From Butyrivibrio sp. (GTDB lineage Bacteria > Bacillota > Clostridia > Lachnospirales > Lachnospiraceae), in the NCBI GenBank assembly GCA_017535785.1, contig JAFXTN010000024.1, positions 1 through 64,000 on the forward strand: a stretch of DNA of 64,000 bases, in the 5' to 3' direction. The position numbers and the translations under genes are program-made. The notes below the pieces were generated by a model. It was not told the origin of the DNA, made no database searches, and worked only from the letters and a program-made list of their open reading frames with translations. Of this stretch, positions 6,305-50,593 are shown one piece after another (the stretch's first letter is position 1; every line of letters begins with the position of its first letter).

Positions 6305-7315
6305 TCAATAATCGATTATCTTATTGATAAGCTCCATATCATCGCCACAATATTTTACATACACATCGCTCATAGCGTCTCTGAACTTTTTCTTTTCGTC
6401 TGAAGAAAGCGAGGTTACGATCGTTCCGCTGTCGATAGCTTTTTTCTTGGATCGCTCTTCTCTCTGGATCCAGAGCTGTCTCTCATAAAGCGCCGATTCT
6501 TTGGCACACTCTCTTATTATCTCTTTGTCGGAATCTGAAAACATATTCCAAACAGCCTCAGAACAGATCTGCATCTCGGGAACTCTGACGTGTTCATCGA
6601 TCGTATAATACTTGGCAACCTTACAATGATTCATCGATTCATAAGATGGCCAGTTGTTCTCCGCCGCATCAACTATCCCCTGTTCAAGCGCGGAGTAAAC
6701 ATCTGAATAAACGATCTCAACCGGATTTGCTCCAAGTGCAGAGATCATATCTGCCATTATAGCAGATTCCTGAACTCTTATATTCATTCCCACGCAGTCT
6801 TCGATCGACGTAATGGGTTTATCGCTGCTGTAGAAGTTTCTTGCTCCCGCATCATACCACGAAAGACCGACAAGATTATAATTCCCTGCCTTTTCAAGGA
6901 ATTCATCGCCTATCTCTCCTTCAAGAACTCTCCACATGTGCGCCGAATCATCATACAGATAAGGTAAAAGAAGAACATTCATCTCCGGAATTCTCTCGGC
7001 AAGCTGAGAGACTGAAACTCTGGCAAAAGCAATCCCGCCGTACTTCATTTGATTGATCGCTTCAGCCTCACTTCCAAGCTCCGCTCCGTACTTTATCTTG
7101 ATCTTTATCCTTCCGTTTGTGCGCTCATAAACAAGGTCGGCGAATTTCTGTCCTCCGAGCGTTGTAGGATAATTCTCGGTCTGATTCTCAGCATAAAAAA
7201 GAACATACTCGGGAGCCGTTTCAGTCTTTTTTCTGTTGTCCATAAACCACATGACCACAGCCACGACAGCAGCCGAAAAAACTATGGCCGATGCTATTAT
7301 CCATCTCTTTTTCAT
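6305..7315 (-). CDS. Membrane-anchored DctP-type TRAP binding protein (sensory)
   Basis: This is a 336-residue DctP-family solute receptor. It begins with a single hydrophobic helix (residues 5-23) and then a basic stop (DNRKKTE), with no lipobox cysteine, so it should stay tethered by an N-terminal helix. The binding domain shows the family's conserved carboxylate-binding region, MNIRVQESAIMADMISALGANPVEIVYSDVYSALEQGIVDAAENNWPSY read across its middle. It overlaps the response regulator gene by 4 bases (ATGA) and belongs to the kinase operon, not to the TRAP permease genes, which have their own lipoprotein DctP. It is therefore more likely a ligand-sensing subunit for the kinase than a transport receptor (inference). 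Confidence 0.85.
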   Translation of the reverse strand: MKKRWIIASAIVFSAAVVAVVMWFMDNRKKTETAPEYVLFYAENQTENYPTTLGGQKFADLVYERTNGRIKIKIKYGAELGSEAEAINQMKYGGIAFARVSVSQLAERIPEMNVLLLPYLYDDSAHMWRVLEGEIGDEFLEKAGNYNLVGLSWYDAGARNFYSSDKPITSIEDCVGMNIRVQESAIMADMISALGANPVEIVYSDVYSALEQGIVDAAENNWPSYESMNHCKVAKYYTIDEHVRVPEMQICSEAVWNMFSDSDKEIIRECAKESALYERQLWIQREERSKKKAIDSGTIVTSLSSDEKKKFRDAMSDVYVKYCGDDMELINKIIDY

Positions 7316-8109
7316 GAACCCAAAACTCCGTTTCTGTAATCACTGGGAGTCATTCCCGTCATTCTCTTAAAGACCCTCGCGAAATAATTGGCATCGCGAT
7401 ATCCTGCTTCAGTACTGATATCCTTGATGTTTATAGCAGGGTTTGCGAGAAACTCTTTTGCCTTTCCTATCCTAAGCTCATTTAGATATACGATAAAGCT
7501 CTTTCCGAAATTCTGTTTGAAAAGCTTGCAGAAATAAACATCGGAGTATCCGAGAACACCCGCAACATCCTGAAGAGAAATATCTTCCTTGTAGTGTTCG
7601 TCGATATAATTCTTAGCTTCTCTGACAATGATACTGGACTTGCTATGGTCGGACTCTTCATTATCAATATCAAAAACAGTAGATGAGAGCTCGCTTTCTT
7701 TGGCCGTTGCACCTTCTGCTCTTTCTTTGTTCTTATCGGCGATGCTGAATGCTTCCTCGAAAGCACTTATAAGATCGTCGTCGGAACCCGGCTTTAACAG
7801 ATAATCAAGCGCCTTAACTTCAATAGCTTTTTTGGCATAACTGAATTCATCAAATGCCGTTAAGAATATTATACTGCAATAAGGATCGATATTTCTGATC
7901 TCTTCCGCAGCTTCAAGTCCGCTTTTCCCCGGCATCGCTATATCCAAAAGAGCGATCTGACAGTTGTTTTTGGTAAATTCTTCTACGGCCTCAAAGCCGT
8001 TCTCAGCAAAAAACACCTCGACCTGCTCCGGGAAAAAGCCGTTTATTTTCTTATATATAACCTGTCTTTCGATAGGTTCATCATCTGCAATAAGTACTCT
8101 GTACATCAT
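7312..8109 (-). CDS. Response regulator, REC + AraC-type HTH (YesN-like)
   Basis: This is a DNA-binding regulator of about 265 residues. The receiver domain (1-120) has DDE near the start, the phosphoacceptor in IALLDIAMPGKSG, and Lys in YLLKPGSDDDL. The C-terminal AraC double helix-turn-helix (about 165-262) includes ISLQDVAGVLGYSDVYFCKLFKQNFGKSF and ISTEAGYRDANYFARVFKRMTGMTPSDYR. The start at 8109 (or the next ATG at 8106) follows AAGGAG. It lies 13 bases after its kinase and overlaps the anchored DctP gene. It most likely activates the TRAP transporter operon at 9690-13120. Confidence 0.92.
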   Translation of the reverse strand: MMYRVLIADDEPIERQVIYKKINGFFPEQVEVFFAENGFEAVEEFTKNNCQIALLDIAMPGKSGLEAAEEIRNIDPYCSIIFLTAFDEFSYAKKAIEVKALDYLLKPGSDDDLISAFEEAFSIADKNKERAEGATAKESELSSTVFDIDNEESDHSKSSIIVREAKNYIDEHYKEDISLQDVAGVLGYSDVYFCKLFKQNFGKSFIVYLNELRIGKAKEFLANPAINIKDISTEAGYRDANYFARVFKRMTGMTPSDYRNGVLGS

Positions 8110-8122
8110 TACTCTCCTTGAT

Positions 8123-9613
8123 TTAGTCGGTGTCACCGGCAAGATACGGGAGTGTTATTGTTATAGTTGTACCCACACCTTCCGTGCTTTCGATCTTCAT
8201 GTCACCTTCTTCATACATACCTTTTATTCTTCTGTAGATATTACCGATCCCTATTCCGACACTGCTGTTCTCTTTACCTTCAAGGGACTCGAGTATCTTA
8301 TTAAGCGTCATCTTATCCATGCCCTTTCCGGTATCTTTTATAGCAATGATAAGATTATCCTTCTGTTTGGAAATATCTACAGACACACAGCCTCCCTCAA
8401 CCTTGGGAGATATGCCGTGAATGATACAGTTTTCTATTATCGGCTGAAGCGTGAATGTAGGTACCATTACATTGTCCGCATCTACGGTACAATTAACTTC
8501 ATACTTCACCCTGTCGCCGAATCTCATCTTTTGAAGATACATATAGTCTTCAGAAACTTTAAGTTCCTGAGATAAAAGAACTTCCTTTGCCTGGTTCTTC
8601 AGATTATAACGAAACAGCGAAGAAAGAGCTTTTATCATCTGCTCGGATGTACCCGCGCCCTCAAGATTGGCCATTCCGCCTATAACATTTAAGGTGTTAA
8701 AAAGAAAATGCGGATTGATCTGATTCTTTAAAAGCTCTAGGTTCATCGCATCAAGCTGCTTTTCCGCCTCAAGAGTCTCTACCTCCTGAGCATGAAGCTT
8801 ATCAAGAGCTTCTCTTCTCTCTTCCAATGCTTCAATATATTCACCCGTAGCATATTTCATCTTATTAAACGCAACAACAAGTTCACCAAGCTCATCCTCG
8901 TTGTCAGCTTCTACATCATCTATAAAAAAGTCATTGGCCGCGATCTTTCTCGATGCATTTGCAAGCTTAAGAACCGGCTCCGTTATGGCTTTATTCATCA
9001 TTCTGGAGATCTCAAGGACTATTGAGAACAATAAGATACTGAGTGTGACCGCAATAAGCGGAACCGCAAACACTGTAGGGATAAGCTCCCTGTATTTGGC
9101 ATTTCCGTCCTTCAAAGTAAGATCAACAAACTTTTGAGCATAGCTTATAAGATAGTCCTGCATTGCGTAAACGGAATAAAGCCTTGTCACATAATCATTG
9201 CTAAGCAGATTACCTTCCACGATCTCATCTCTTGAGACACAATATACATCATAACAAGTCCTTAGAGAAAAGAGCTGGGCATATCTGTTCTCACCAAGTC
9301 TGTTATAGTCGAGCGGTACAGCGCTTATCGCTTTTGCCGTTTCACTAAAGGAACTTAGAAGAGCTTCCCTATTCTCTATGGAATTGTTGTTTATAAACTC
9401 ATTAAAACAATCCTTCTCTTTATCGAGAACAGCGACAAGCTCGCCTCCTTTTGAGTTGTCTTCCATTATGTCGTTGACGTCAATTACAAAAAGCCTTATG
9501 AGTATTGCATCAAAAACAATGGCAACCAAAATAGTGAGAAAGACGGTTCCCGTAAAGAGGGATATTTTATTTTTAATTGTGATCTTTTTCCAAAAAGACT
9601 TTATTTTTCCCAT
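8123..9613 (-). CDS. Sensor histidine kinase, YesM/LytS type
   Basis: This is a 496-residue membrane kinase. Transmembrane helices lie at about 17-42 and 179-200 and flank an extracytoplasmic domain of about 135 residues. A HAMP linker follows (about 203-255), then a coiled coil. The His-kinase box LLKNQINPHFLFNTLNV places the phosphorylated His at 302. The HATPase region has PIIENCIIHG and GKGMDKMTLNKI, and ends in GVGTTITITLPYL. No clear Shine-Dalgarno site precedes the ATG at 9613; a hairpin ends 11 bases before it. It is the first gene of the kinase-regulator-DctP-WYL operon. Its modest external domain probably reads the state of the anchored DctP. Confidence 0.92.
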   Translation of the reverse strand: MGKIKSFWKKITIKNKISLFTGTVFLTILVAIVFDAILIRLFVIDVNDIMEDNSKGGELVAVLDKEKDCFNEFINNNSIENREALLSSFSETAKAISAVPLDYNRLGENRYAQLFSLRTCYDVYCVSRDEIVEGNLLSNDYVTRLYSVYAMQDYLISYAQKFVDLTLKDGNAKYRELIPTVFAVPLIAVTLSILLFSIVLEISRMMNKAITEPVLKLANASRKIAANDFFIDDVEADNEDELGELVVAFNKMKYATGEYIEALEERREALDKLHAQEVETLEAEKQLDAMNLELLKNQINPHFLFNTLNVIGGMANLEGAGTSEQMIKALSSLFRYNLKNQAKEVLLSQELKVSEDYMYLQKMRFGDRVKYEVNCTVDADNVMVPTFTLQPIIENCIIHGISPKVEGGCVSVDISKQKDNLIIAIKDTGKGMDKMTLNKILESLEGKENSSVGIGIGNIYRRIKGMYEEGDMKIESTEGVGTTITITLPYLAGDTD

Positions 9614-9623
9614 AATTTTAAAA

Positions 9624-9668
9624 GAAGGCAGCGAATAGTTACTATTAAAGTATTATATCGCTGCCTTC
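9624..9668 (-). terminator. Hairpin with nested -10 box before the kinase operon
   Basis: An 11-bp perfect stem (GAAGGCAGCGA with TCGCTGCCTTC) closes a 23-base loop, and on the minus strand it is followed by TTTTAAAATT and then the kinase ATG. It lies after the YcxB-like gene and would end the TRAP operon. The loop holds a perfect minus-strand TATAAT (9652-9657). A transcript starting there would lack the left arm and so could not form the terminator. No good -35 is visible. Confidence 0.5.
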
Positions 9669-9689
9669 GATAAATTTCTATTTTTCTTT

Positions 9690-10160
9690 TTATTTACGAA
9701 TCTTTTTGCACAAGAATTCGAAGAATTCTTCCTTCTCATCTCCAAGGATCCTGTTGGTGAGCATATATCCGTGGCTTGTGTCAGACATAACGATTATCAT
9801 ATTGGTCTGCTTAATGGCATTGGATATCTTGTTCCACATGATATCCTCATGCTTGCCTTCGCTGTCCACATGAACTCCGTTATCATCAAACATAAGCTCA
9901 ACTCTGCCCGGCAGGTTCTCAAGCTGCTTGACGCTTCTTCCGTATATTGCAAGAGGTTGAATAACCGGAAAAAGTAAGCATCCGATGATCATAAGGGTTC
10001 TTATAAAGCCTCCGGTCGTACTCCAAAAATGAAGTGTCATCATTATCATGGCTACCGTAAATACAACATTTATAATTCCAATAAATGAGCGGTAAATACG
10101 AAGCATTGATATGAACCAAAGATCCTTGGGCTTAACATCCGAAATAAATCTGTATTCCAT
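9690..10160 (-). CDS. YcxB-like membrane protein of the TRAP operon
   Basis: This is a 156-residue protein with two hydrophobic segments (about 27-47 and 52-72) and a C-terminal soluble domain of about 75 residues. The C-terminal pattern VELMFDDNGVHVDSEGKHEDIMWNKI...IIVMSDTSHGYMLTNRILGDEKEEFFEFL resembles the YcxB-like domain, a family of unknown function. It follows dctM after only 12 bases and has AAGGAC upstream, so it is probably translated from the TRAP mRNA. YcxB-like proteins are not a standard TRAP component. I cannot assign a role. Confidence 0.7.
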   Translation of the reverse strand: MEYRFISDVKPKDLWFISMLRIYRSFIGIINVVFTVAMIMMTLHFWSTTGGFIRTLMIIGCLLFPVIQPLAIYGRSVKQLENLPGRVELMFDDNGVHVDSEGKHEDIMWNKISNAIKQTNMIIVMSDTSHGYMLTNRILGDEKEEFFEFLCKKIRK

Positions 10161-10172
10161 ATAACTGTCCTT

Positions 10173-11468
10173 TTATTTAGCAAACAAGTTAGGTAAGAAC
10201 ATGCTGATCTCAGGTATAAATGTGAGAAGCATAAGTACTATGATCATGCATAAATAGAAAGGAAGTGTTGCCTTTACAACCTTCTCCATCCTAACCTTAC
10301 CAACAGCGGAACCGATGAACAATACTGCTCCAACAGGAGGAGTAAGAAGTCCGATACCACAGTTAAGGATTATCATGATACCAAACTGTATCGGATTGAT
10401 TCCGATAGACTGAGCTATAGGAAGAAGGATAGGTGTAGCTATCAAAATGATAGGAGCCATATCCATGATGCATCCGAGTACAAGAAGTATCAGGTTAAGA
10501 AGAAGTGCTATCAAAACAGGATTACGTGTAAGTCCGATGATAGCGTTTGCAGCAAGGTCCGGTACATGAAGAGTTGTGAGACAGTATCCGAATACACTTG
10601 ATGTTGCGATAAGGATAAGCACGATCGAAAGTGTATCTATGCACTGCTCAAGAGTCTTCCAAAGTCCCTTAAGATCTATTCCTCTGTAGATGAACAAGCT
10701 TACGATAAGGGAATAGATAACAGCTATAGCTGCAGATTCCGTAGCGGTGAACAATCCTCCTACTACTCCGAATACTACGATAACAACAGCTGCAAGAGCC
10801 CAGAATGATGTAACGAACTGCTTTAAGAACTTAATAAATTCAAACTTATCTCCCTTAGGGTAATGTCTCTTTTTGGAGATGATGTATGATCCAACCATAA
10901 GAGATAATGCAAGAAGTGCTCCTGGAATATATCCTGCGAGGAAAAGGCTTCCTACTGAAACTCCGCCAGCACTCATCGCATAAATTACCATGTTGTGGCT
11001 CGGAGGGACTAAAAGTCCCTCACAAGAAGATGTTATCGTAACCGCAGTTGAGAAGTCATCATCATATCCCTGCTCAACCATCATAGGAATAAGAATACTA
11101 CCAAGTGAAGCTGTATCTGCTGCAGCCGATCCCGAAATACCACCAAAGAAGTATGAAGCAACGATATTAACCATAGCCATACCGCCGGTCATCCATCCTA
11201 CACAGGAATTTGCAAGTGCGATCAGCTTTTCCGATATACCTCCGGTACCCATTATGCATCCCATTGTGATGAAGAACGGTACCGCCATCAAACTAAAGGA
11301 GTTGATTCCCTTAACCATATGCTGACATACGGTTGTAAGAGGGAGTCCCTGATATAACAAACAAAAAATTGAAGATAATGCTACTGCATATGCAATCTGG
11401 AATCTCAGCATAATCATAACGAGAAAGCTCGCAAGCAATATAACAATAGCGGTTGTATTTACTGCCAT
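10173..11468 (-). CDS. dctM: TRAP transporter large permease (DctM family)
   Basis: This is the main transport subunit of a tripartite ATP-independent periplasmic transporter, which takes up an organic acid driven by an ion gradient. Its 431 residues and about 12 hydrophobic segments fit DctM. Family landmarks include GSAAADTASLGSILIPMMVEQGYDDDF, the loop SHNMVIYAMSAGGVSVGSLFLAGYIPG, and ILNCGIGLLTPPVGAVLF near the end. It overlaps the dctQ stop by one base (TAATG) and has GGAGGAG as its ribosome site. The substrate cannot be read from the permease; dicarboxylates or sugar acids are typical for the family. Confidence 0.95.
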   Translation of the reverse strand: MAVNTTAIVILLASFLVMIMLRFQIAYAVALSSIFCLLYQGLPLTTVCQHMVKGINSFSLMAVPFFITMGCIMGTGGISEKLIALANSCVGWMTGGMAMVNIVASYFFGGISGSAAADTASLGSILIPMMVEQGYDDDFSTAVTITSSCEGLLVPPSHNMVIYAMSAGGVSVGSLFLAGYIPGALLALSLMVGSYIISKKRHYPKGDKFEFIKFLKQFVTSFWALAAVVIVVFGVVGGLFTATESAAIAVIYSLIVSLFIYRGIDLKGLWKTLEQCIDTLSIVLILIATSSVFGYCLTTLHVPDLAANAIIGLTRNPVLIALLLNLILLVLGCIMDMAPIILIATPILLPIAQSIGINPIQFGIMIILNCGIGLLTPPVGAVLFIGSAVGKVRMEKVVKATLPFYLCMIIVLMLLTFIPEISMFLPNLFAK

Positions 11469-12004
11469 TACTTATTCTCCTCCTTTATAACTATGCTTTT
11501 AATGTGATTGTATATTTGCTCGAGTTCGAAAACGAACATCGCTATTCCCGCTACCGGGATAGGAAAATATAACCAGAATCTGGAAAGGAAAGGCATACTT
11601 ACATAAGAACCCTTGCTTCCGATAGTCTGTGCATACTTCATTCCTACCACGATCATGACGATTGAAAGAGCCAGAACAAAAACATCATTTAAGATATCAA
11701 GCGCCTTCAAAAGCTTCTTGGGGAAATATACATCAAGTGCTGTCATACGAATATGCGCGCCACGTCTTATAGCAAGAGCCGCGGATAACACAGCCATGTA
11801 AGCCATGAGTGTAAGAACAACTTCTTCACTCCATGCAGGATCGTGAATAGCATGATTATATTTACTCAAATATCTGCATGCAACACTCACACTTGTTATC
11901 AGGATATCTGCAATAAGTAAAAGCTTGCAGACAAAGAGCATAACTTTATATGTCACATCATATAAAGGTTTGATCTTATCAACCTGTTTAAAAAAGCCTT
12001 CCAT
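11468..12004 (-). CDS. dctQ: TRAP transporter small permease (DctQ family)
   Basis: This is a 178-residue four-helix membrane protein that pairs with DctM. Hydrophobic segments lie at about 20-42, 65-82, 103-122 and 143-163. The conserved DctQ region appears as WSEEVVLTLMAYMAVLSAALAIRRGAHIRMTALDVYFP (roughly 58-96), including the EE and RRGAHI landmarks. It lies 15 bases after dctP with an AGAGG ribosome site and runs directly into dctM. A normal member of the family in length and order. Confidence 0.93.
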   Translation of the reverse strand: MEGFFKQVDKIKPLYDVTYKVMLFVCKLLLIADILITSVSVACRYLSKYNHAIHDPAWSEEVVLTLMAYMAVLSAALAIRRGAHIRMTALDVYFPKKLLKALDILNDVFVLALSIVMIVVGMKYAQTIGSKGSYVSMPFLSRFWLYFPIPVAGIAMFVFELEQIYNHIKSIVIKEENK

Positions 12005-12019: not shown

Positions 12020-13120
12020 TTACTTCATGTCTACTATCTTCTGATAGAGATCTTCCTGTCCTTTTGTATTCTCAGCGATAACACTCTTAACAGCTTCCTG
12101 CCAAGGAGTGATATCATCAACCTCAACGATGTTTACACCGTCTGCCTTAAGCTGGTCAAGTACTTCCTTCTCCTTCTCCTCAGAGATTGAACGGTTATAC
12201 TCTGATGCCACCTTACCTGCCTCTACAAGGATATCCTGCTGCTCAGGTGTAAGTGACTCCCATGCCTTATCTGTGATAACAACCTGGATAGCGCCAAGTG
12301 TATGTCCGTCAAGGATCATGTTAGGTGCAACCTCAGGGAATGCTTTTGACTTGTAGTTAGCAATGGGCTGCTCAGCACCGTCAACAGTACCTGTCTGAAG
12401 TGCCTGATAAAGCTCGTTGAAATCTACTACTGTAGGAGAAGCGCCAAGTCCCTTAACAAGACCGTTCATTACAGGGTCATTTGAAACACGAAGCTTCATT
12501 CCCTTAAGGTCTTCAATTCCTGAAATTTCCTTTGCTGTAAAGAAATGACGGAAACCTTCCTCACCATAGAAAAGACCTCTGATTCCGCTACCTTTTTCTG
12601 AGGGCTCCAGAAGGAACTCCTGAGCAAGATCTGATGTAGCGAAATTCCAGAAATGATCACGGCTTACGAATGTGTAAGGAAGTGAAAGGAGCATAGACTT
12701 CTCTCCACCGTAAGGTGTAAGAGCGAAAGCTGAAATTCTTGACATAGCGATCGTATCGCCGCCACCGAGCATTGTATCAAGTACGTCATTCTCTGATCCG
12801 AGAACTCCGCCGGGCTGAAGATCGATGATGATAGATCCTTTAGATCTCTTCTCAACTTCTTCCTTGAACTTAGCATCTGTCATACCAACGATGGTATCAA
12901 GGTTATTAACCTCTGCCATAACAAGCGTAATAGCGTCTGCTGCAGGTGTTACTGTCTCTGCCTCAGCTTCTGCTTCTGTAGCTTCAGCTGCAGGAGCTTC
13001 CTCTGTAGTTGCAGGTGTCTGCGCAGGAGCTGCAGGTGCTTCAGGAGCTGAAACGCCGCAAGCTGTCATGGAAACAACAGTTGCTACTGCCAATAATGTT
13101 GAAATAATTTTTTTCTTCAT
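12020..13120 (-). CDS. dctP: TRAP transporter substrate-binding lipoprotein (DctP)
   Basis: This is a 366-residue extracytoplasmic receptor. The signal peptide ends in a lipobox SMTAC with Cys21, so it is lipid-anchored. An Ala/Pro/Glu/Thr-rich linker (about 23-62) separates the anchor from the binding domain. The DctP core includes IIIDLQPGGVLGSENDVLDTM, the substrate-binding MKLRVSNDPVMNGLVKGLGASPTVVDFNELYQALQTGTVDGAEQP read across about 200-245, and a C-terminal helix. It is first of the dctP-dctQ-dctM-YcxB-like operon, preceded by the hairpin/promoter at 13147-13183. It differs from the DctP at 6305-7315, which lacks a lipobox and sits with the kinase. Confidence 0.95.
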   Translation of the reverse strand: MKKKIISTLLAVATVVSMTACGVSAPEAPAAPAQTPATTEEAPAAEATEAEAEAETVTPAADAITLVMAEVNNLDTIVGMTDAKFKEEVEKRSKGSIIIDLQPGGVLGSENDVLDTMLGGGDTIAMSRISAFALTPYGGEKSMLLSLPYTFVSRDHFWNFATSDLAQEFLLEPSEKGSGIRGLFYGEEGFRHFFTAKEISGIEDLKGMKLRVSNDPVMNGLVKGLGASPTVVDFNELYQALQTGTVDGAEQPIANYKSKAFPEVAPNMILDGHTLGAIQVVITDKAWESLTPEQQDILVEAGKVASEYNRSISEEKEKEVLDQLKADGVNIVEVDDITPWQEAVKSVIAENTKGQEDLYQKIVDMK

Positions 13121-13146
13121 ACCATAACCTCCCTAAAAATTTGAAT

Positions 13147-13183
13147 AAAAAAATGACATTGTCTTTTCGACAATGTCATTATA
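13147..13183 (-). promoter_or_regulatory. prsW terminator with TRAP-operon -10 box nested in it
   Basis: On the minus strand a 12-bp perfect stem (AATGACATTGTC with GACAATGTCATT, 13152-13180) with a 5-base loop is followed by seven T residues, a strong terminator for prsW. A perfect TATAAT (13178-13183) overlaps the upstream edge of the stem. Initiation about seven bases later (near 13171) would drop most of the left arm, so readthrough RNA would terminate while RNA starting here would not. The -35 region is only a T-run. This leaves about 15 bases before the dctP ribosome site. Confidence 0.6.
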
Positions 13184-13282
13184 GGTTATACAAGTATTAC
13201 AAAAAATCGGACATTTTTAAGAATCCTAGTACAATTTTAATCACTTGTACTTTTTTATCCTATTTAGTTTTGTATCAAACAA

Positions 13283-16410: not shown

Positions 16411-16425
16411 TTTACACCTCTTTCG

Positions 16426-18138: not shown

Positions 18139-18181
18139 TACTAAGTCCTCCTTGTCAAAATAAGTGCAGTGAGATAATAAA

Positions 18182-18211
18182 TGGGGCGGATCTTTTGTAT
18201 AACCCGCCCCA
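18182..18211 (-). terminator. Attenuating hairpin between binding protein and permease
   Basis: TGGGGCGG pairs with CCGCCCCA around a 14-base loop, with a modest TTTATTAT tract after it on the minus strand. It lies between the binding-protein stop and the permease ribosome site. Such hairpins often give partial termination and protect the upstream mRNA, so more binding protein than permease is made. Confidence 0.65.
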
Positions 18212-18225
18212 AATAGCATTAAATA

Positions 18226-20317: not shown

Positions 20318-20335
20318 ATCCAAAAATCCTTCTTA

Positions 20336-24956: not shown

Positions 24957-24979
24957 ACCTTTTCCCTTTTGTATAAAAC

Positions 24980-26122: not shown

Positions 26123-26146
26123 AACGCTACCCCACGTCGCGTTTCC

Positions 26147-42268: not shown

Positions 42269-43815
42269 TATTTAACCTCCTTATTTCCGGATGACTGCAA
42301 GATATAAGTCATAATTTTTTCCTGAGTAGCGTCTTTACCATCAAGCTCTCCTACCATCTGGCCTTCGTTCATAACATATATTCTGTCACACATGCCAAGA
42401 ATTTCAGGAAGCTCGGAAGAAATCATGATAACTGATTTTCCTTCCGCAACGAGCTGGTTGATAATACAGTAAATTTCATATTTAGCACCTACGTCGATAC
42501 CTCTTGTAGGTTCATCGAGGATAAGTATGTCCGGATTAGCAAACATCCACTTAGCAAGAAGAACCTTCTGCTGGTTACCACCACTAAGGTTTCCAACATT
42601 CTGTTCTACAGTAGGACATTTTGTCTTTAGCTTTTCCTTATACTCTTTCGCAACAGATACTTCCTTATCCTTATCGATAACGGAACGATTACTTACTTCT
42701 TCAAGATTAGCAAGTGTTGTATTTATCTTGATGGGATTGGTAAGAATAAGTCCGTTTCCTTTACGATCCTCAGTAACATAAGCAAGCTTATGTCTGATCG
42801 CATCTTTAACAGATTTAAGGTGAACTTCCTTGCCGTTAATAAAGAGCTGTCCCGAAATATTCTCTCCGTAGCTCTTACCAAAAATACTCATGGCAAGTTC
42901 TGTTCTTCCGGCACCCATAAGTCCGGAAATTCCGACAACCTCACCTTTTCTGACATTAAGATTGACGTTCTTTACTATCTTTTTATCAGTATATAAAGGA
43001 TGGTAAACATTCCAATTCTTAACTTCCATCATCACATCGCCGATATGAGATTCTCTCTTAGGGAATCTGTCTGAAAGTTCACGACCAACCATTCCCTTAA
43101 TGATCCTAGCCTCTGAGATGTCATCTACACCCTTTGTAAGGGTCTCAATAGTTGAACCGTCACGGATAACCGTGATCTTATCAGCTACATAAGAAATCTC
43201 GTTAAGCTTATGAGAAATGATGATAGATGTAAGGCCCTGTTCCTTCTTAAGCTTGAGCATAAGATCAAGAAGTGCCTTAGAATCACTCTCATTAAGTGAT
43301 GATGTGGGCTCATCGAGAATAAGAAGTCTTGCGTTCTTTGAAAGAGCCTTCGCAATCTCAACAAGCTGCTGTTTACCAACACCAATATCCTTAATCAATG
43401 TCTGAGTACTGTCCTTAAGTCCGACAATATCCAGATATTTACGAGCCAAAGCGTTTGTTTCGTTCCAATCGATCTTGAGAGAATTACCTCTCTCATTACC
43501 AAGGAACATGTTTTCAGCTATTGTAAGATAAGGAATAAGTGCAAGCTCCTGATGAATGATAACTATTCCTTTTTCTTCACTGTTCTTTATATCTTCGAAT
43601 TTGCAAACCTCGGAGTCATATATGATATCACCTTCATAGGATCCGTAAGGATAAATTCCACTAAGCACGTTCATCAGTGTAGATTTACCAGCGCCATTCT
43701 CTCCAACCAGCGCGTGAATTTCGCCCTCTTCAACCTGAAGATTTACATTATCCAAGGCTTTCACACCGGGGAAGGTTTTGGTGATATTCTTCATTTCCAA
43801 TAATATCTTCGCCAA
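42268..43815 (-). CDS. mmsA: Multiple-monosaccharide ABC transporter ATPase
   Basis: This is a 515-residue ATPase with two nucleotide-binding domains in tandem, as in GguA/RbsA/XylG. The first has [11 protein letters not shown], a signature region around [15 protein letters not shown] and Walker [14 protein letters not shown]. The second has [13 protein letters not shown] (a degenerate Walker A, normal for this family), [15 protein letters not shown] and [15 protein letters not shown]. It sits between the receptor and permease genes in the order chvE-mmsA-mmsB. The 118 bases before it hold a GC-rich hairpin (43870-43891). Confidence 0.95.
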
Positions 43816-43869
43816 GTTTACCCCTCCTTATTAAATAAATTAAGATTAGTCATTTTTTTCCTATAAAGA

Positions 43870-43891
43870 GGCGGGTCTTATAAGGCCCGCC
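43870..43891 (-). terminator. Intercistronic hairpin between chvE and mmsA
   Basis: GGCGGG pairs with CCCGCC, with an inner CTTATAAG palindrome extending the stem, then TCTTTATAGG on the minus strand. Weak as a full terminator. It resembles the hairpin after the other ABC receptor (18182-18211) and probably raises the receptor-to-permease ratio. Confidence 0.6.
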
Positions 43892-43933
43892 CCCCTGTTT
43901 ATATTGTTTTGTAAAAATTGATCACTTAAGAAA

Positions 43934-45100
43934 TTACTTAAGATCATCCTCTGTGTAATAACCTGAATCGATGAGAAGAGTCTTATAGTTATCTGCATCA
44001 GCGAATACAGGCTCGCAAAGGTATGAAGGAACTTTGATCACACCGTTATCATAAGACTCTGTATCATTTACAGGAGCCTCGCCGCCCTTCATGATAGCAT
44101 CAACCATCTTTACAGTCTGAGCTGCAAGATCACGAGTATCCTTAAAGATAGACATTGACTGCTTGCCATTATCAAGCATAAGCTTAACGTTAGGCTTATC
44201 GCAATCCTGACCTGTAACTATAGGCCAATTATCATGTGAACCTGCGTAGTTAGCCTGAAGTGAATTGATTGCACCAAGTGCTGTTGAGTCGTTTGAGCAA
44301 AGAACTGCGTCAAGCTTTGTTCCATCTGCGTAGTTAGCAGAGATGATAGCATCCATTCTTGACTGAGCTGCTTCTGTTGCCCATCCGGGTGTAGCAACCT
44401 TATCAAACTCAACCTGTCCGGACTTAACAACGAGTACACCACTGTCGATGTAAGGCTGAAGAACTTCCATAGCACCGCCATAGAAGAATCTAGCGTTGTT
44501 ATCACCGGGATCTCCTGTGAAGATCTCAAGGTTGAAAGGTCCCTTCTGATTCTTAAGATCAAGCTTCTCTTCGATGTATTGACCCTGCTTTGTTCCTACC
44601 AGCTTGTTATCGAATGTAGCATAGTAGTTAACAGCGTCAGATGCCATGATAAGACGGTCGTATGCGATAACAGCAACGCCGGCTTCCTTAGCCTGCTGAA
44701 GAACTGTTCCGAGTGAATCACCTTCGATAGGAGCGATTACAAGCACCTTATCGCCTGCACTGATCATGTTCTCGATCTGAGAAACCTGTGTAGGAATGTC
44801 GTTAGAAGCATACTGAAGGTCAACCTCATATCCGGCTTCCTCAAGCTGCTTCTTCATGTTGTCACCGTCCTGGTTCCATCTCTGAAGATCCTTAGTAGGC
44901 ATTGAAACACCAACTTTTCCGCCGGCAGCGGGTGCCTCTGCGGGTGCTTCTGCTTCTGCTGCAGGTGCTTCCTCTGCTGTCTCAGCAGGAGCTTCTGCTG
45001 CGGGTGCTTCTGCTGCAGGTGCTGCAGCTGAGCCGCATCCTACAAGTGCTGAAGTAACCATAGCAACTGAAAGAAGTGCGCCAATGATCTTTTTCTTCAT
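43934..45100 (-). CDS. chvE: Multiple-sugar-binding lipoprotein (ChvE type)
   Basis: This is a 388-residue sugar receptor. The signal peptide ends in ALVGCGS (Cys22), followed by a long Ala/Pro/Glu linker to about residue 60. The periplasmic-binding-protein type 1 domain starts KVGVSMPTKDLQRWNQDGDNMKKQLEEAGYEVDLQYASND, the start characteristic of the ChvE/MmsE group, and includes VIAYDRLIMASDAVNYYATFDNKLVG and the sugar-contacting GQDCDKPNVKLM. It supplies the MmsAB transporter encoded downstream. The promoter region 45101-45234 contains an inverted repeat (45136-45151). Confidence 0.94.
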   Translation of the reverse strand: MKKKIIGALLSVAMVTSALVGCGSAAAPAAEAPAAEAPAETAEEAPAAEAEAPAEAPAAGGKVGVSMPTKDLQRWNQDGDNMKKQLEEAGYEVDLQYASNDIPTQVSQIENMISAGDKVLVIAPIEGDSLGTVLQQAKEAGVAVIAYDRLIMASDAVNYYATFDNKLVGTKQGQYIEEKLDLKNQKGPFNLEIFTGDPGDNNARFFYGGAMEVLQPYIDSGVLVVKSGQVEFDKVATPGWATEAAQSRMDAIISANYADGTKLDAVLCSNDSTALGAINSLQANYAGSHDNWPIVTGQDCDKPNVKLMLDNGKQSMSIFKDTRDLAAQTVKMVDAIMKGGEAPVNDTESYDNGVIKVPSYLCEPVFADADNYKTLLIDSGYYTEDDLK

Positions 45101-45311: not shown

Positions 45312-46388
45312 TCAATCAGGCATTTTATCAACATGATAGCGATATACTTCCTCTTTTAGGTGGAATCCGCTACCAATGATGACATCATCTATATTATCCA
45401 CCGTAACACTTTGAGGTTCAATCTTCAGATAAGGAACATCATAGCTTCCGTCATTTATCGTTGAAATATTGCTATCCGATAAGGTCTTGGTCTTAACGAG
45501 TTCGATAGTGCTGGCCGCAGCCTGCTTTGCAAGCTTTTCGATAGGCTTATACACCGTCATAAGCTGAGTACCTTCAACTATTCTCTGGCAGGCAACGATA
45601 TCAGCATCCTGGCCGACTAATATCTTTTGTCCTGAAAGCCTTCTCTCAGCAAGCGCCTGGGTAACTCTTGTAGCGAGATCGTCATTTCCGCACATTATCG
45701 CATCGGCTTCATTTACCTTGTCCATGTTGTTATACATGTACTCATAAGCCACCTCAGCTCTCCAGCCGTCCGCATATATGCAGTCTATTATCTCGTTGTT
45801 GTTCTGTCTCATAACTTCGCGGAAGCCTGACTCCACCAGAGGAACGTTGTTATCGGACGGTGATCCGCAGATCATTATGACCTTTCCGTTTCTTACTCCG
45901 GCCGATGCTATCGCTTCGCCCATCATATTTCCAACCATCTCGTTGTCAAAAGAAATATAGAGATCGACATCCGCATCATTGATCAGTCTATCGTAAGCAA
46001 CTACAACTATCCCTGCTTCCTTAGCCTTTTTTACCGATTCACTCAGAGCATTTGAATCGATGCAGATAATGACGAGCGCATCCACACCTTTCTTAATAAG
46101 CAGATCGATCAGTCTCTTTTGTTCTTCGATATCACCGTTGGCATTACGTACATCTACTTCAGCTCCGAGTTCCTTGGCAATAGATCCGAATACATCTCTG
46201 TCCCTTTGCCATCTCTCTATGACAAATGAATCAAAGCACATTCCTATCTGTATCTTGTCGTCATCTACAGTTCCCGAAGTGCTTTTGACAGCATTTTCGC
46301 TTCCGCAACCCAAAAGACATGAAATAACCAGAGTAAGTGTGAGGAATAATGATATCAGCTTAGTAGTATTTTTTTGCCTTCCTGTCAT
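45312..46388 (-). CDS. Sugar-binding lipoprotein in the sensory operon
   Basis: This is a 358-residue periplasmic-binding-protein type 1 receptor with a lipobox SCLLGCGS (Cys near 28). The sugar-binding domain reads IQIGMCFDSFVIERWQRDRDVFGSIAKELGAEVDVRNANGD and carries VVVAYDRLINDADVDLYISFDNEMVGNMMG and VGQDADIVACQ, close to ChvE in pattern. Start 46388 was chosen because AGGAGG lies 12 bases upstream, inside the end of the regulator gene. It is the last gene of the sensory operon and ends at a terminator, with no permease after it. It may be a second receptor sharing MmsAB, or a second input for the sensor. Confidence 0.88.
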   Translation of the reverse strand: MTGRQKNTTKLISLFLTLTLVISCLLGCGSENAVKSTSGTVDDDKIQIGMCFDSFVIERWQRDRDVFGSIAKELGAEVDVRNANGDIEEQKRLIDLLIKKGVDALVIICIDSNALSESVKKAKEAGIVVVAYDRLINDADVDLYISFDNEMVGNMMGEAIASAGVRNGKVIMICGSPSDNNVPLVESGFREVMRQNNNEIIDCIYADGWRAEVAYEYMYNNMDKVNEADAIMCGNDDLATRVTQALAERRLSGQKILVGQDADIVACQRIVEGTQLMTVYKPIEKLAKQAAASTIELVKTKTLSDSNISTINDGSYDVPYLKIEPQSVTVDNIDDVIIGSGFHLKEEVYRYHVDKMPD

Positions 46389-46392
46389 TATC

Positions 46393-47988
46393 TTATTTTC
46401 CCTCCTTAAACTCGGTGGGTGTAACACCTACATTCTTCTTAAAGCTTCTGCTGAAATAATTGGGGTCGGTATATCCGCAGGCAACACATATCTCCTTCAT
46501 CGACATATCTGAATTAAGAAGGAGCTCTTTTGCCTTATCGATCCTTATGTTGGTAAGGTACTCGATGAAGTTAAGGCCGCTCTCTTCCTTAAACAGCTTA
46601 CTGAAATAATAAGGAGAGATATTTACATACCTTGATACGTCGTCGAGCGATATCTCCTTGGAGAAATTATCCGAAATATATAATTTGGCATTCTTGATGA
46701 TGTCGTTACTCTTTTCTTCTCTCTTACTCCTGACGTTTCTGCACGCTTCGGTAAGCTTGTTTATATACCACTGCTTCAAGCCTTCCGCAGTCTCGATCGC
46801 CATGAGTTCAGGAAGATAATTGTCTCTGGAAGAGTATTTATAGGTCTGACCTCCGTTCATAAACGAAAGTCTCTCTGCATAAAGTGCAAATTCAAGAACC
46901 TTAATGCGCATTGACTGAAGATCGCCGTTCTCAGCTCTTTTGCACATCCAGTCAGTGTACTTCTCAGCGGTAACGAGCATCTGATTGAGATCTCCGTTAC
47001 TTACCGCGTCAAACATCGGCTTCTCAAGCTCGATCGGATAATCGTCCTCGTAATTGCAGCCTATGACAAGGTCGTCGGCGTGCGCAACAGAACCGGTCGT
47101 AGCTATAAGCGCATTAAGAGCTTCTCTGTAGGAATCACTGAGCTCTCTTAACGGTCTTACTCCGCCTATTCCGATCCTGAACGAGATATCGGTCTTTTTC
47201 TTAAGTCCTCTGGCAAGCTCTCTTGCTCTGTCGATAAGCTCGGTCCTTTCGTTGTATTCCATCTTGGGATTTTCAAAAGGAATGAGCACCGCGATCTTAT
47301 TGGCCATGACGTTTCCTATCTTGCAGGAAAAATAGTCTTTTACGGCGTCTCTTATCTCCTGATATCTGGTGGATATCTTGACTGAGCTTCCGATCGCATT
47401 GGTCATATGATTGCCTTCCTGCTTATCACCGCAAACAATGGACATCATATATCCGTAGTTTTCGTTGATACCAAGGATGGTCTTATAGTTGTCAAAATCC
47501 TCTTCAAAATGCTCCTGAAGAAGAATGTCGTAGATAAGTCCGTTTTCTAAAATGGGCTCTATCGTCTCAAGCTTTTCTTTTATCTTAAGCTCGTTACTTC
47601 TCTTTTCTCTCTCTCCGTCGATCTTGGCCATGGCTTTTCTCAGAACGTCAACTACCTTGGCCTTTTCCATGGGTTTATTTATGTACTCAAGAACGCCTAG
47701 CTTTATCGCCTCTTTTGCGTAGTCGAATTTATCGTACGCAGACATAACGACAAATACCGTTCCCGATGAAAAGCGCTTGATCTCTCTTATTGCCTCTATT
47801 CCGTTGATACCCGGCATATGAATGTCCATAACCGCAATGTCGGGTCTGAATCTCTCCGCAAGCTCAATAACGCTCCTGCCGGTCTTGGCAAACTGAACCT
47901 CGCATTCGCTTCCGAACTCTTTCTCGATTATGAATTTCATTGAATCGATGACTATTCCTTCGTCATCGGCGATCATTATCCTGTACAT
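46393..47988 (-). CDS. Response regulator, REC + AraC-type HTH (YesN)
   Basis: This is a 531-residue regulator. The receiver (1-120) has IADDEG, the phosphoacceptor in DIAVMDIHMPGINGIE and Lys in YINKPMEKAKV. A central region of about 270 residues, typical of long YesN proteins, links to an AraC domain (about 430-530) with ISLDDVSRYVNISPYYFSKLFKEESGLNF and ICVACGYTDPNYFSRSFKKNVGVTPTEF. It follows the kinase after 51 bases and is followed by the lipoprotein after 4 bases. The chvE-mmsAB operon is the expected target. Confidence 0.92.
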   Translation of the reverse strand: MYRIMIADDEGIVIDSMKFIIEKEFGSECEVQFAKTGRSVIELAERFRPDIAVMDIHMPGINGIEAIREIKRFSSGTVFVVMSAYDKFDYAKEAIKLGVLEYINKPMEKAKVVDVLRKAMAKIDGEREKRSNELKIKEKLETIEPILENGLIYDILLQEHFEEDFDNYKTILGINENYGYMMSIVCGDKQEGNHMTNAIGSSVKISTRYQEIRDAVKDYFSCKIGNVMANKIAVLIPFENPKMEYNERTELIDRARELARGLKKKTDISFRIGIGGVRPLRELSDSYREALNALIATTGSVAHADDLVIGCNYEDDYPIELEKPMFDAVSNGDLNQMLVTAEKYTDWMCKRAENGDLQSMRIKVLEFALYAERLSFMNGGQTYKYSSRDNYLPELMAIETAEGLKQWYINKLTEACRNVRSKREEKSNDIIKNAKLYISDNFSKEISLDDVSRYVNISPYYFSKLFKEESGLNFIEYLTNIRIDKAKELLLNSDMSMKEICVACGYTDPNYFSRSFKKNVGVTPTEFKEGK

Positions 47989-48039: not shown

Positions 48040-49518
48040 TCAGTTTGATTCCTCGTAAGGAAGGCGTATGATGACTTCACAACCCATGTTTTCTCCCTTA
48101 CTCTCTATATTAAACGAGTTGTCACTCTCTGTGTAAAGTCTGAGTCTTGAAATAACGTTATCCATTCCGATTCCGTTATTGTCATACTGATGCTCTTTGT
48201 GCTGCCAGCGACCGCTCATTATCTTTTCGATATCTTCCGGGCTTATGCCCTTGCCGTTATCCAATATGCTGATGCAGACATTCTTGTCCTCTCGGTAAAC
48301 CTTAAGAGTGATCTTACCCCTGTCTCCCATCTCTCTGATACCGTGGTTAACGGCATTTTCAACTATGGGCTGCAGGATCATGTTGGGCATGGTAACATCG
48401 AGCAGTCTTTCATCCACCTGCTTATCATAACCTATATCACCCGAAAAACGAACGTTGAGGATCCTGATGTAATTATCTACAAGAGTTACCTCTTCTCTTA
48501 TGGTCGCATCGGTCTTTTTGCCGTTTACGTTGTATCTGAAAAAGTCCGCTACAGTCTGAACATATTCATAGGTCTTGTCGGCGCCCTCCATCATTGCAAG
48601 CTGAGCTCCGGCATTGAGCGTGTTAAAAAGAAAATGCGGGTTGATCTGCGCCTGCAGATACTTAAGCTGAGCATCCTTAAGATGGGATTCCATCATCAGC
48701 TCTTTTTCCTGCATGTATCTTTCCTTTTCCATGCTCTCTCTTATCTTCTCAATGTACTGCTTGATGCTGATGACCATCTTATTAAAAGCATTGAGCACGG
48801 TTCCGATCTCATCATTATATGACATCTCCGGAAGTTCCGTATCGAAATTACCTTCCGCAACTTCATTGGCTGAATCGGCAAGGCGTCTTAGCGGCATGAT
48901 TATAGTGCTGACAAAGCTTGTTACAATCAATATATTGCCCGCCATGACAAGCGTGATCACGATAAAGCTTATGAACTCGTAGTGTCTGAAAGCATTGTTA
49001 AGTTCGGAATAATGCTTGGAGTTATTTACAAAGAGCTCCAGGTTCAGACTAGTGATGTATGCGTTGATATATTCATACATCGCCGTTGAATTCTCATAGC
49101 ATGCACGATACTCCTCTACGTTACGTCCGCGCTTAGCTTCGATAGTCTTAGCAACTTCATCAAGATAATTCTGAGACATATTCTTGATATTTCTTTCCAT
49201 TCTTCCGAAGGAAAGCTCTGTTATCTTGTCATCAAGCTTCTCTTTAAGGAGATCAAAATGCTGTGCGTTCTTATAATAGTTTTCAAGTGAATCCGATGTC
49301 TTGGAGCTCAGATACTCGGTCATCGAATCCTGCACATTGCTAAGGGATGTCGAGAGTTCGTTGAGGTTTCTGTTGTCCTGATAGACCATTTCCATCTCAA
49401 CCGACATACTGTTGATCCCAAGCAGCAAAAAGATATTTACAACAAATATTATGATATTGGTCAGCACGCAGATACTAACGATCTTATACTGAAGGGGCTT
49501 ATCGAGAAATCTATTCAT
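48040..49518 (-). CDS. Sensor histidine kinase, YesM/LytS type
   Basis: This is a 492-residue membrane kinase. Helices at about 9-32 and 178-200 bracket a helical external domain of about 145 residues (four-helix bundle in appearance). HAMP (MPLRRLADSANEVAEGNFDTEL) and a coiled coil lead to the His box YLQAQINPHFLFNTLNAGAQL and HATPase motifs PIVENAVNHGIREMG and DNGKGISPEDIEK. The ATG at 49518 has GGGGG upstream and overlaps the anchored binding-protein gene by 8 bases, as in the second module. The lack of a ligand-binding fold of its own suits reading the state of the anchored binding protein. Confidence 0.92.
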   Translation of the reverse strand: MNRFLDKPLQYKIVSICVLTNIIIFVVNIFLLLGINSMSVEMEMVYQDNRNLNELSTSLSNVQDSMTEYLSSKTSDSLENYYKNAQHFDLLKEKLDDKITELSFGRMERNIKNMSQNYLDEVAKTIEAKRGRNVEEYRACYENSTAMYEYINAYITSLNLELFVNNSKHYSELNNAFRHYEFISFIVITLVMAGNILIVTSFVSTIIMPLRRLADSANEVAEGNFDTELPEMSYNDEIGTVLNAFNKMVISIKQYIEKIRESMEKERYMQEKELMMESHLKDAQLKYLQAQINPHFLFNTLNAGAQLAMMEGADKTYEYVQTVADFFRYNVNGKKTDATIREEVTLVDNYIRILNVRFSGDIGYDKQVDERLLDVTMPNMILQPIVENAVNHGIREMGDRGKITLKVYREDKNVCISILDNGKGISPEDIEKIMSGRWQHKEHQYDNNGIGMDNVISRLRLYTESDNSFNIESKGENMGCEVIIRLPYEESN

Positions 49519-50593
49519 CCTGCTCAACCCCCTTCGCTTTATGATACAACTCGACATTATTCTTATTTATAAGGATAACGTCAGCTGTATAGTACTGGTT
49601 GGTGCTTCCGTATTCATAATAATCTGAAAGAGCACTTATACAATATTCACCAAGCTGCTTGGTATCAATACCGATAGTAGCGTAAACCGTTCCTTTTTCA
49701 ATTTCTCTGATGATCGCTTCGGAGTCATAGTATCCTAGGATATCCGTCTGTCCAACCCTGTTAAAATCTACCAGCGCCTGATACGCACATACGGTATTGA
49801 GCTCATTGAGACAGACGATAACATCGGGAATATCATCCGCAAAGAATATATCTCTTATAGACTCCTCTACAGAGAACGCATTGGTATTATTTACAGTGAT
49901 CATGTTGAGCGTAAAATCGGAGCCTTCGGGCTTATTCTGTTCGATCACATCTTTTATCGCAGAAATGAGAATATTCTGGCCTGTCTCTTTTGCATCCGAA
50001 TCGATAAGGATGGCAATATTGGTCATATTCGATCCATCGGTATAGCCTGTGGTATTCTCCTTATCCTTCATGATGTTGATTATCTGTTTGCCATACTCTT
50101 TTCCGATGTTGTAACTACCGATACCAACATAGCTCAGTCTGTCGGAGTGAGTATTGTCGCTGTAAAGAGTCACAACAGGAATGCCTTTTGCTTCCGCATC
50201 ATCAATAAGTGCCGTCATCTCATCAGATTCGTTGGCATAAACCATAATGCCGTCAACCTTGGAGGCGATAGCTATTTTCATAAGCTGTTCACAGGAATAC
50301 TGAGTGGGAAGATTATCTCCCAAAAGATCCACATAGATATTCTGCTCCTGGGCGGCGTCAAATGCACCCTTATATATCTCCTGCCAGAAGTCAGACTTAT
50401 AGTTGTCCGTTATCATAACGTAATACTTATCATAGACCTTGTCGTCGGACTGCACATTATACCTTAAGATGTTGAATCTAAATACAACAAGACCTACGAC
50501 AATAACAAGTATCACAAAAAGAACCGTAAGTGATAGGATCACATTTGATCTATTGAGTTTCTTTCTTATAAAATCAAGTGAATTTTTACTCAT
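49511..50593 (-). CDS. Membrane-anchored sugar-binding protein (sensory, XylFII-like)
   Basis: This is a 360-residue periplasmic-binding-protein type 1 domain (residues about 55-345) behind a single N-terminal helix (about 17-41, VILSLTVLFVILVIVVGLVV). There is no lipobox cysteine, so it is a membrane-tethered protein. Sugar-binding features include VMITDNYKSDFWQEIYKGAFDAAQEQNIYVDLLGDN and DILGYYDSEAIIREIEKG. It overlaps the kinase by 8 bases. C. beijerinckii XylFII, which binds xylose and activates LytS, has the same design and gene order. The ligand here is unknown but probably one of the sugars carried by MmsAB. Confidence 0.88.
   Translation of the reverse strand: MSKNSLDFIRKKLNRSNVILSLTVLFVILVIVVGLVVFRFNILRYNVQSDDKVYDKYYVMITDNYKSDFWQEIYKGAFDAAQEQNIYVDLLGDNLPTQYSCEQLMKIAIASKVDGIMVYANESDEMTALIDDAEAKGIPVVTLYSDNTHSDRLSYVGIGSYNIGKEYGKQIINIMKDKENTTGYTDGSNMTNIAILIDSDAKETGQNILISAIKDVIEQNKPEGSDFTLNMITVNNTNAFSVEESIRDIFFADDIPDVIVCLNELNTVCAYQALVDFNRVGQTDILGYYDSEAIIREIEKGTVYATIGIDTKQLGEYCISALSDYYEYGSTNQYYTADVILINKNNVELYHKAKGVEQDE

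Follow-up and report, generated by a model that had tools for sequence, protein, structure and literature searches.

The first 64,000 nucleotides of contig JAFXTN010000024.1 of Butyrivibrio sp. (GenBank assembly GCA_017535785.1), referred to here as the window, carry three modules in which a binding protein of a transporter family is encoded together with a YesM-type histidine kinase and an AraC-type response regulator. The three are very probably binding-protein-coupled kinases, and the reading favoured here, at a probability of about 0.72, is that they represent three receptor-kinase-regulator nutrient sensors, the third of which (module 3, sugar type) would employ two receptors, a binder and a coupler. 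These receptors are designated x (the second XylF-like receptor) and a (the helix-anchored sugar receptor), respectively. If so, a single gut-type bacterium has turned the binding proteins of three unrelated types of transporter into antennae for kinases, and the logic of a conserved clostridial two-receptor sugar sensor, with a binder and an anchored partner, differs from that of the one-receptor textbook cases. Direct support exists for the gene content, order, coupling, conservation and co-evolution of these units, and for the retention of the sugar pocket in x.

An anchored binding protein, a YesM-type kinase and an AraC-type regulator had been predicted for each module, and Pfam and NCBIfam bear this out. 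PF06580 and HATPase_c are found in all three kinases and Response_reg and the AraC helix-turn-helix domain in all three regulators, while the receptors belong to three unrelated families (DctP, SBP_bac_6/8 and Peripla_BP_4). As predicted, the anchored receptors lack a lipobox and have a hydrophobic helix at the N-terminus, whereas the transport copies have lipoboxes. The gene order is kinase-regulator-receptor in module 1 and receptor-kinase-regulator in modules 2 and 3. The expected overlaps are also present, namely 4 bases between receptor and regulator in module 1 (7312-7315), 8 bases between receptor and kinase in module 2 (21993-22000) and again 8 bases in module 3 when the internal ATG at 49518 is taken as the start of the kinase gene, the longest open reading frame (ORF) giving 47. 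That one triad is repeated three times holds for modules 1 and 2. The sugar module, however, has four genes, including a second and more sugar-competent receptor (45312-46427), which had been left out of the original prediction, as had a YcxB-like gene at 9690-10160.

A second receptor in the sugar-type module

Module 3 and its neighbouring transporter consist of the following features; SBP stands for solute-binding protein and aa for amino acids.

41078-45100, minus strand: sugar ABC transporter, with permease, ATPase and ChvE-type lipoprotein SBP at 43934-45100 (PF02653, PF00005, PF13407, NF040907)
45312-46427, minus strand: second receptor x, a XylF-like lipoprotein with a lipobox and the sugar-pocket residues kept (PRK10355 XylF, 270 bits, below cut-off)
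46393-47988, minus strand: REC-GGDEF_2-AraC response regulator (Pfam)
48040-49557, minus strand: YesM-type histidine kinase with a 148-aa ectodomain at 48976-49419, consensus AKRGRN (PF06580), likely start 49518
49511-50593, minus strand: helix-anchored receptor a, XylFII-like, without the conserved sugar-pocket residues (Peripla_BP_4; 5xsd, E 6.5e-23)

The ChvE-type lipoprotein clears the NCBIfam ChvE cut-off (478.8 vs 460). From its likely ATG start at 46388, x begins four bases past the regulator gene.

Homologues of all three modules were searched by receptor sequence alone, and the resulting loci are labelled L followed by a number. Receptor a was found in 31 of 120 family genomes (32 matches, E<=1e-20) and in 33 of 291 class genomes (E<=1e-50); outside the family, 20 of the 27 class hits were fetched, representing 11 genera and seven families. 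The kinase gene adjoins that of a in all 32 family loci, the window included. Outside the family this holds for 19 of 20 fetched loci, the exception being L249, in which a single protein (8404-10365) has the ectodomain and HAMP fused straight to the GGDEF_2 and AraC parts of the regulator, and neither a kinase nor a receiver domain was recognised in it by Pfam. A fusion of this type occurs in one of six genomes of that family and may reflect a deletion or an assembly error. The regulator gene is followed by x in 51 of 51 assessable loci from eight families (31 in the family, including the window, and 20 outside), with x located by tblastn in L149 and L150; L146 was not assessable as the contig ends first. 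The gap between regulator and x has a median of -4 bases (n=29), and that between x and the transport SBP a median of +169 (n=24). Terminator-like hairpins were found in 3 of 25 gaps in the sugar set, compared with a mean of 0.05 after shuffling.

On trees, a (52 rows) and x (51 rows) each form a single clade (support 100 and 99), partly by construction, as the rows were labelled by best match to the window proteins. Operon position and distance correlations, unlike the clade tests, are free of this labelling. In the 35 of 52 loci that include all parts (L249 omitted), the distances of a, x, kinase and regulator are mutually correlated at 0.73-0.85 (x with a, 0.83; x with the kinase ectodomain, 0.84), and those of the transport SBP and ATPase at 0.93, compared with 0.41 for x and the transport SBP and 0.30-0.41 for the sensory versus the transport block. 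The block pattern persists when the set is reduced to 26 family loci, and to 25 by dropping one transport outlier; in these 25, x correlates with the sensory genes at 0.62-0.64 versus 0.24-0.30 with the transport genes. On this evidence, x is probably part of the sensor rather than of the transporter.

A different explanation would make module 3 an ordinary XylFII-LytS/YesN system, with x being the transporter's own XylF left nearby and sharing the permease with the ChvE-type protein. The full sugar pocket in x and the match of a to XylFII would be expected in that case, and the partial correlation of x with the transport SBP is slightly above zero. However, x follows the sensory genes far better than the transporter in the distances, and its gene overlaps or abuts that of the regulator, set apart from the transport operon. 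Moreover, 7 of the 17 assessable loci outside the family, from six genera, showed no recognisable transporter after x when the 3-4 kb downstream was compared with a reference set using phmmer; among the loci checked, L240 has a lipoprotein without assigned family following x, and an ABC ATPase is encoded about 6 kb upstream in L254. In L242, another XylF-like protein is encoded next to the transporter genes in addition to x, and in 6 of 51 loci, from four genera, x is itself helix-anchored. A leftover transport protein is therefore considered an unlikely identity for x.

The binding pockets were compared in an alignment of 49 rows for x, 38 for the transport SBP and 52 for a. Fourteen positions of x (R72, W73, D76, Y145, D146, R147, D192, N194, W222, N248, D249, D274, Q288 and K294) are conserved at >=95% in both x and the transport SBP, and in a all of these save W73 are replaced or variable. 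A profile alignment agrees at the columns checked, the window copy of a having Y-S for D146-R147, E for D249 and Y for D274. The pocket residues of ribose-binding protein include D89, R90 and D215 (PMC2630998). D146/R147 and D274 of x would correspond to D89/R90 and D215, and the whole list is presumed to consist of pocket residues. Hence, x seems capable of binding sugar of the kind taken by the transport SBP, whereas a seems not to be a standard sugar binder, and the odds that x rather than a is the main sugar binder are put at about even.

Receptor a also shows its own set of conserved positions, among them D146, R152, T267 and N278 (own numbering). This raises the alternative that a and x bind two different ligands, both of which are integrated by the kinase. 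Such positions together with a variable pocket are expected if the ligand of a differs or varies by species, but the variable pocket fits a loss of binding equally well, and the two-ligand arrangement is regarded as possible but rather doubtful.

The best match of a among the 18 PDB sequences matched is the 5xsd entry, which we take to be XylFII. The kinase ectodomain of module 3 aligns gap-free over 32 loci, with A95, K96, R97 and R99 present in >=90%, and a profile of the 32 sequences detected no LytS chain at E<=1, though the same fold is possible. XylFII-LytS had been proposed as the precedent for the sugar module; this applies to the receptor, but not to the kinase ectodomain, which is not recognisably that of LytS by sequence. 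As judged from the sequences, the name XylFII-LytS is an analogy for module 3 and not a statement of membership.

In the favoured mechanism, a tethered binding protein would sit on the ectodomain of a YesM-type kinase, and binding of the ligand would switch the kinase, leading to phosphorylation of the AraC-type regulator and activation of the neighbouring transporter. In modules 1 and 2, one sensory receptor each, helix- or lipid-tethered in relatives, would fill this role. In module 3, extracellular sugar would load x, which would then engage a and the kinase ectodomain, and the YesM kinase would phosphorylate the AraC regulator such that the ABC operon is switched on. Receptor a would probably be a fixed partner that couples sugar-loaded x to the kinase, or else may sense something different. 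The contacts, ligand, phosphotransfer, direction of signalling and target promoter in this scheme are what we infer from the sequence data. A more specific version, in which x docks on a, a has lost sugar binding and become an adaptor of the AKRGRN kinase, and the cassette is a widespread clostridial four-component sensor that joins exchangeable transporters or none, is offered tentatively and has somewhat less than an even chance of being correct.

In L251 and L254, the sugar cassette is directly followed by a glycogen synthase gene, with no transporter recognised downstream.

The TRAP-type and iron-type modules

Modules 1 and 2 and the transporters beside them consist of the following features.

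6305-7315, minus strand: helix-anchored DctP-family (TRAP-type) receptor, sensor copy, without lipobox (PF03480, E 2.2e-74)
7312-8142, minus strand: module 1 REC-AraC response regulator (PF00072 and PF12833), ATG start probably at about 8106-8109
8123-9613, minus strand: module 1 YesM-type histidine kinase with a 141-aa ectodomain (PF06580, HATPase_c, HAMP)
9690-10160, minus strand: YcxB-like small membrane protein, between TRAP permease and kinase (PF14317, E 4.2e-08)
10173-11468, 11468-12004 and 12020-13120, minus strand: TRAP transporter, being DctM, DctQ and lipoprotein DctP, respectively (PF06808, PF04290, PF03480)
15349-19404, minus strand: iron/2-aminoethylphosphonate-type ABC transporter, with ATPase, fused permease and lipoprotein SBP at 18226-19404 (PF00005, PF00528, SBP_bac_6)
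19550-20323, minus strand: module 2 REC-AraC response regulator (Pfam)
20336-22000, minus strand: module 2 YesM-type histidine kinase with a 217-aa ectodomain of the double-Cache kind (PF06580; 3by9 sensor)
21993-23015, minus strand: module 2 helix-anchored HptA-like receptor, without lipobox (SBP_bac_6/8; 6lki, E 7.8e-38; 6lkg, E 9.9e-38)

The sensor copy of DctP was found in 14 of 120 family genomes, including its own (22 matches, E<=1e-40), and in 7 of 291 class genomes (E<=1e-70); in named relatives, the best 80 of 204 matches were taken, and an ORF was obtained in 77 of these 80. The best match (70%) is to a metagenome-assembled genome of Butyrivibrio. A same-strand YesM kinase gene is located beside 11 of the 22 family matches (the window, L009, L084-L086, L090, L091, L093, L094, L096 and L102). 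In the closer sensor clade, such a kinase lies within about 10 kb upstream or 4 kb downstream in 81 of 89 loci. These 89 comprise the 77 from named relatives and 12 of the 22 from the family, including three duplicates (L165, L213 and L226, dropped from trees) and L009, which falls outside the clade; L089, at a contig start, and L095-L103, which are more distant and include several transport copies, were excluded. The usual orders are transporter-YcxB-kinase-regulator-sensor and kinase-regulator-transporter-sensor, and homologues of the YcxB-like gene occur in five other loci of one set and in many loci of the named relatives. L092 has a YcxB-like gene next to that of a sensor DctP, and the stretch fetched for it contains no kinase.

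Partial correlations were obtained for the 51 of 84 TRAP loci that include all parts. The sensor DctP correlates with the cytoplasmic part of the kinase at 0.53 (bootstrap 0.24-0.64), and with the transport DctP (DctP_t), DctQ and DctM at 0.06, 0.05 and 0.09, respectively, while DctP_t correlates with DctQ at 0.34. Pooling the ectodomain with the cytoplasmic part gives 0.44 for sensor and kinase, 0.03, 0.12 and 0.19 for sensor and transporter, and 0.34 for DctP_t and kinase.

For the iron-type receptor, 19 of 120 family genomes gave matches at E<=1e-20 (22 matches, with no ORF obtained for L117). The receptor is directly followed by kinase and regulator genes in 11 of the 21 loci with an ORF, and the remaining loci have single transport SBPs in operons, mostly also with a kinase. 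The receptor of the window pairs with that of L104 (support 100/100). Since the kinase-coupled receptors do not form one clade, with three changes on the best tree and at least two forced by well-supported branches, the receptor-kinase coupling of the iron type is, on the trees, a design that arose or was lost repeatedly. The best solved matches of the module 2 receptor are the 6lki and 6lkg chains, titled solute-binding protein in the PDB, which we take to be HptA. The nearest NCBIfam model for the iron-type ABC module is phnS2, with a score under the cut-off. On the same strand, just upstream of the module 2 receptor (23028-27373), an EAL/weak GGDEF, a weak GGDEF and an HDOD protein are encoded in a row.

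The anchored receptors could instead serve mainly in transport with an unusual tether, their linkage to a kinase being only operon co-regulation. Single SBPs in transporter-kinase operons do occur among the iron-type homologues, and a membrane tether by itself is no argument against transport, as the transport SBPs of Gram-positive bacteria are as a rule lipoproteins attached to the membrane. Against this, a separate lipoprotein transport SBP accompanies every module in the window. On the tree, the sensor and transport copies of DctP are also apart, 61 transport rows forming one clade, though partly by construction as the labels were assigned by similarity. The anchored DctP of the window groups with other sensor copies and not with its own transport DctP, to which it is 30% identical. 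It shares Arg180, presumably the carboxylate-binding Arg of the DctP family, and Arg159 with the transport protein, from which it differs at 26 other fixed positions. Furthermore, TRAP-type receptors share an operon with a sugar ABC transporter and a kinase of the same kind in L090 and L091, and adjoin a CitMHS-like permease and a sulfatase in L102. Receptor family and transporter family can hence be mismatched, and a role mainly in transport is judged very improbable.

The receptor-facing parts of the kinases were also compared. A profile of the TRAP-type ectodomain gave a weak but nearly end-to-end match to the LytS ectodomain 5xsj_L (E 0.016-0.018), which is outranked by a short, helical and unrelated match, 7y9n (E 0.00048). 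The module 2 profile, built from nine ectodomains, matched the 3by9 sensor (E 6.1e-08), which is of the double-Cache kind, and chemoreceptors; none of its five hits at E<=1 is named HptS, the presence of HptS in the set being unchecked. Because the module 2 ectodomain is of this kind, modules 1 and 2 differ in the receptor-facing part. A comparison of TRAP-type and sugar-type ectodomains by hhalign gave a probability of 1.4% (E 0.037, 131 columns) and that of the other two pairs gave nothing, such that no common ectodomain was detected across the three kinases.

Several results weigh against reading the modules as dedicated sensors with x as the binder in module 3. Co-inheritance in one operon alone yields correlated trees, and the partial correlations in the sugar set are modest (0.36 for x and a, 0.29 for x and the ectodomain, 0.17 for a and the ectodomain). 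The partial correlation between x and the transport SBP is 0.18 (0.01-0.34) and thus not zero, and x could therefore also feed the permease. XylFII, the closest solved relative of a, is described as xylose-loaded in its complex with LytS (PMC6321045), and receptors of this kind can thus bind ligand. In the TRAP set, no kinase was found in the fetched stretch beside 11 of 22 family matches (L087-L089, L092, L095, L097-L101 and L103), six of which are transport copies beside DctQ or DctM, with L089 and L095 stopping at contig edges. DctP_t also tracks the kinase, with a partial correlation of 0.22 (0.04-0.38), and for the TRAP kinase ectodomain by itself, which is saturated, a partial correlation with the sensor is absent (0.04). 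Finally, the functions of the iron-type receptors may differ, as these are not a single clade.

The clustering of the three modules within 44 kb was considered as a meaningful feature and rejected as incidental, given that the TRAP and sugar sensors are on different contigs in three genomes of the same genus. In the upstream regions of the TRAP set, TATAAT is present in 52 of 68, compared with about 15 in shuffles, and no clear regulator site was found in these 68 regions. Upstream of the transport DctP in the window (about 13121-13200), TATAAT is immediately followed by a hairpin that has a stem of 9 bases and a T-run and lies ahead of the ribosome site, as seen by eye, and one relative (L159) has a similar hairpin.

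Known systems, genome-wide count and tether type

DctB belongs to the TRAP/DctP family and DctS to the DcuS/CitA kind of kinases. In the DctB-DctS-DctR system for C4-dicarboxylates in Bacillus subtilis, DctB is a membrane co-receptor of the kinase DctS (PMC6978683). Module 1 is alike in having a co-receptor and a kinase, with a receptor of PF03480, a family also matched in the B. subtilis control genome, but it differs in the PF06580 YesM-type kinase, the AraC regulator and the neighbouring TRAP transporter. Module 2 resembles HptA-HptS-HptR of Staphylococcus aureus, in which HptA binds glucose-6-phosphate and contacts HptS (PMC8774646, PMC8534201), in its HptA-like receptor and in the order hptA-hptS-hptR (PMC8774646). 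However, HptASR controls the antiporter UhpT (PMC8774646), whereas the neighbour of module 2 is an SBP-dependent ABC transporter that has a lipoprotein of its own.

Like XylFII-LytS/YesN of Clostridium beijerinckii, which responds to D-xylose and is represented by the LytS-XylFII structure 5XSJ (PMC6321045, PMC9769921), module 3 is a receptor-kinase-regulator unit beside a sugar ABC transporter. It differs, with the C. beijerinckii system taken from review descriptions, in the further XylF-like receptor and the ChvE-type transport SBP, and the weak match to the LytS ectodomain belongs to the TRAP-type kinase and not to that of module 3. In CuaD-CuaS-CuaR of Ruminiclostridium cellulolyticum, a dedicated sensory SBP for cellobiose, separate from the transport SBP, is encoded beside its own kinase, and contact between the two was shown by two-hybrid data (PMC10384115). 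CuaD, however, is a lipoprotein resembling family-1 SBPs and the sole sensory receptor (PMC10384115), whereas module 3 has two.

As to the features that characterise SBP three-component systems, conserved SBP-kinase-regulator coupling is strongest for the sugar type and partial for the iron type (11 of 21), and the catalytic and DNA-binding domains are present. The co-evolution data lend indirect support to a putative contact of SBP and kinase ectodomain through which ligand would alter kinase activity. The idea of a general modular sensor is upheld in so far as a binding-protein sensor is supported, but its spread to iron and TRAP types was already known from HptA and DctB. SBP-activated receptors are described as general and widespread (PMC9602780), and a modular binding-protein sensor across receptor families is already established. 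Neither a TRAP-type receptor with a YesM kinase nor a second receptor in XylFII-type cassettes was met in literature searches, which mostly did not cover subscription papers. Within these searches, what is new is the sugar cassette with two receptors and the combination of TRAP-type receptor and YesM kinase, and the general design is known.

The genome assembly (2.9 Mb, 39 contigs, 90.8% complete) encodes 12 PF06580 kinases. A Pfam-recognised binding-protein gene shares the locus with 11 of them (the window modules and L001, L003-L009), which offers ligand hypotheses for YesM-type kinases; the twelfth (L002) has a 583-aa lipoprotein without Pfam match beside two permease-like membrane proteins. 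A second SBP in the locus, or an SBP without a permease, looks dedicated to the kinase in several loci. In addition to the three window modules, these are L001 (sugar type, between kinase and regulator), L003 (no permease adjoining), L004 (HptA-like) and L009 (TRAP type), and thus a genome-wide count of such units, as had been suggested, gives 7 of 12 loci with a seemingly dedicated SBP. L007 also has two SBPs but is not among the seven. The four DctP-family matches in the genome form two pairs, each in a YesM-kinase locus. In L006, a 150-aa lipoprotein without Pfam family (5333-5785) is encoded between a YesM regulator and its sugar SBP.

A helix anchor without lipobox had been noted for each anchored receptor, but it is not the defining feature. 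Within the genome, a predicted helix of this type is restricted to the three window modules, and the other dedicated SBPs (L001, L003, L004 and L009) have lipoboxes. Receptors of the same kind that are coupled to a kinase have lipoboxes in L001, L004 and L009 and in many relatives, and the helix is not essential to kinase-coupled receptors. In the TRAP sensor clade, the tether switches between helix and lipid at least six times on the best tree, a quick tree with many weak branches. Where the sensor gene is adjacent to that of the regulator, 53 helix and 7 lipoprotein calls were made among the 89 loci; of the seven, L176 and L181 were judged false, L158 is undecided, L207 is a transport SBP, and L171, L211 and L234 are true. 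Where it is distal to the regulator, there are 14 lipoprotein calls, one helix and four without a resolved call (L009, L094, L201 and L210). A helix is also found where the kinase follows the sensor (L093) or is fragmentary (L172), and all eight sensors with no kinase in range are lipoproteins. Anchor type was considered as a functional marker and rejected, as gene order changes only twice on the tree, leaving one or two independent pairs, and the association mostly reflects shared descent. Lipobox calls for L130, L241 and L245 were judged false by eye, and those for L112, L116 and L094 were re-read. For receptor a of the sugar cassette, a helix was called in 50 of 52 loci, and the remaining two have a Cys inside the helix.

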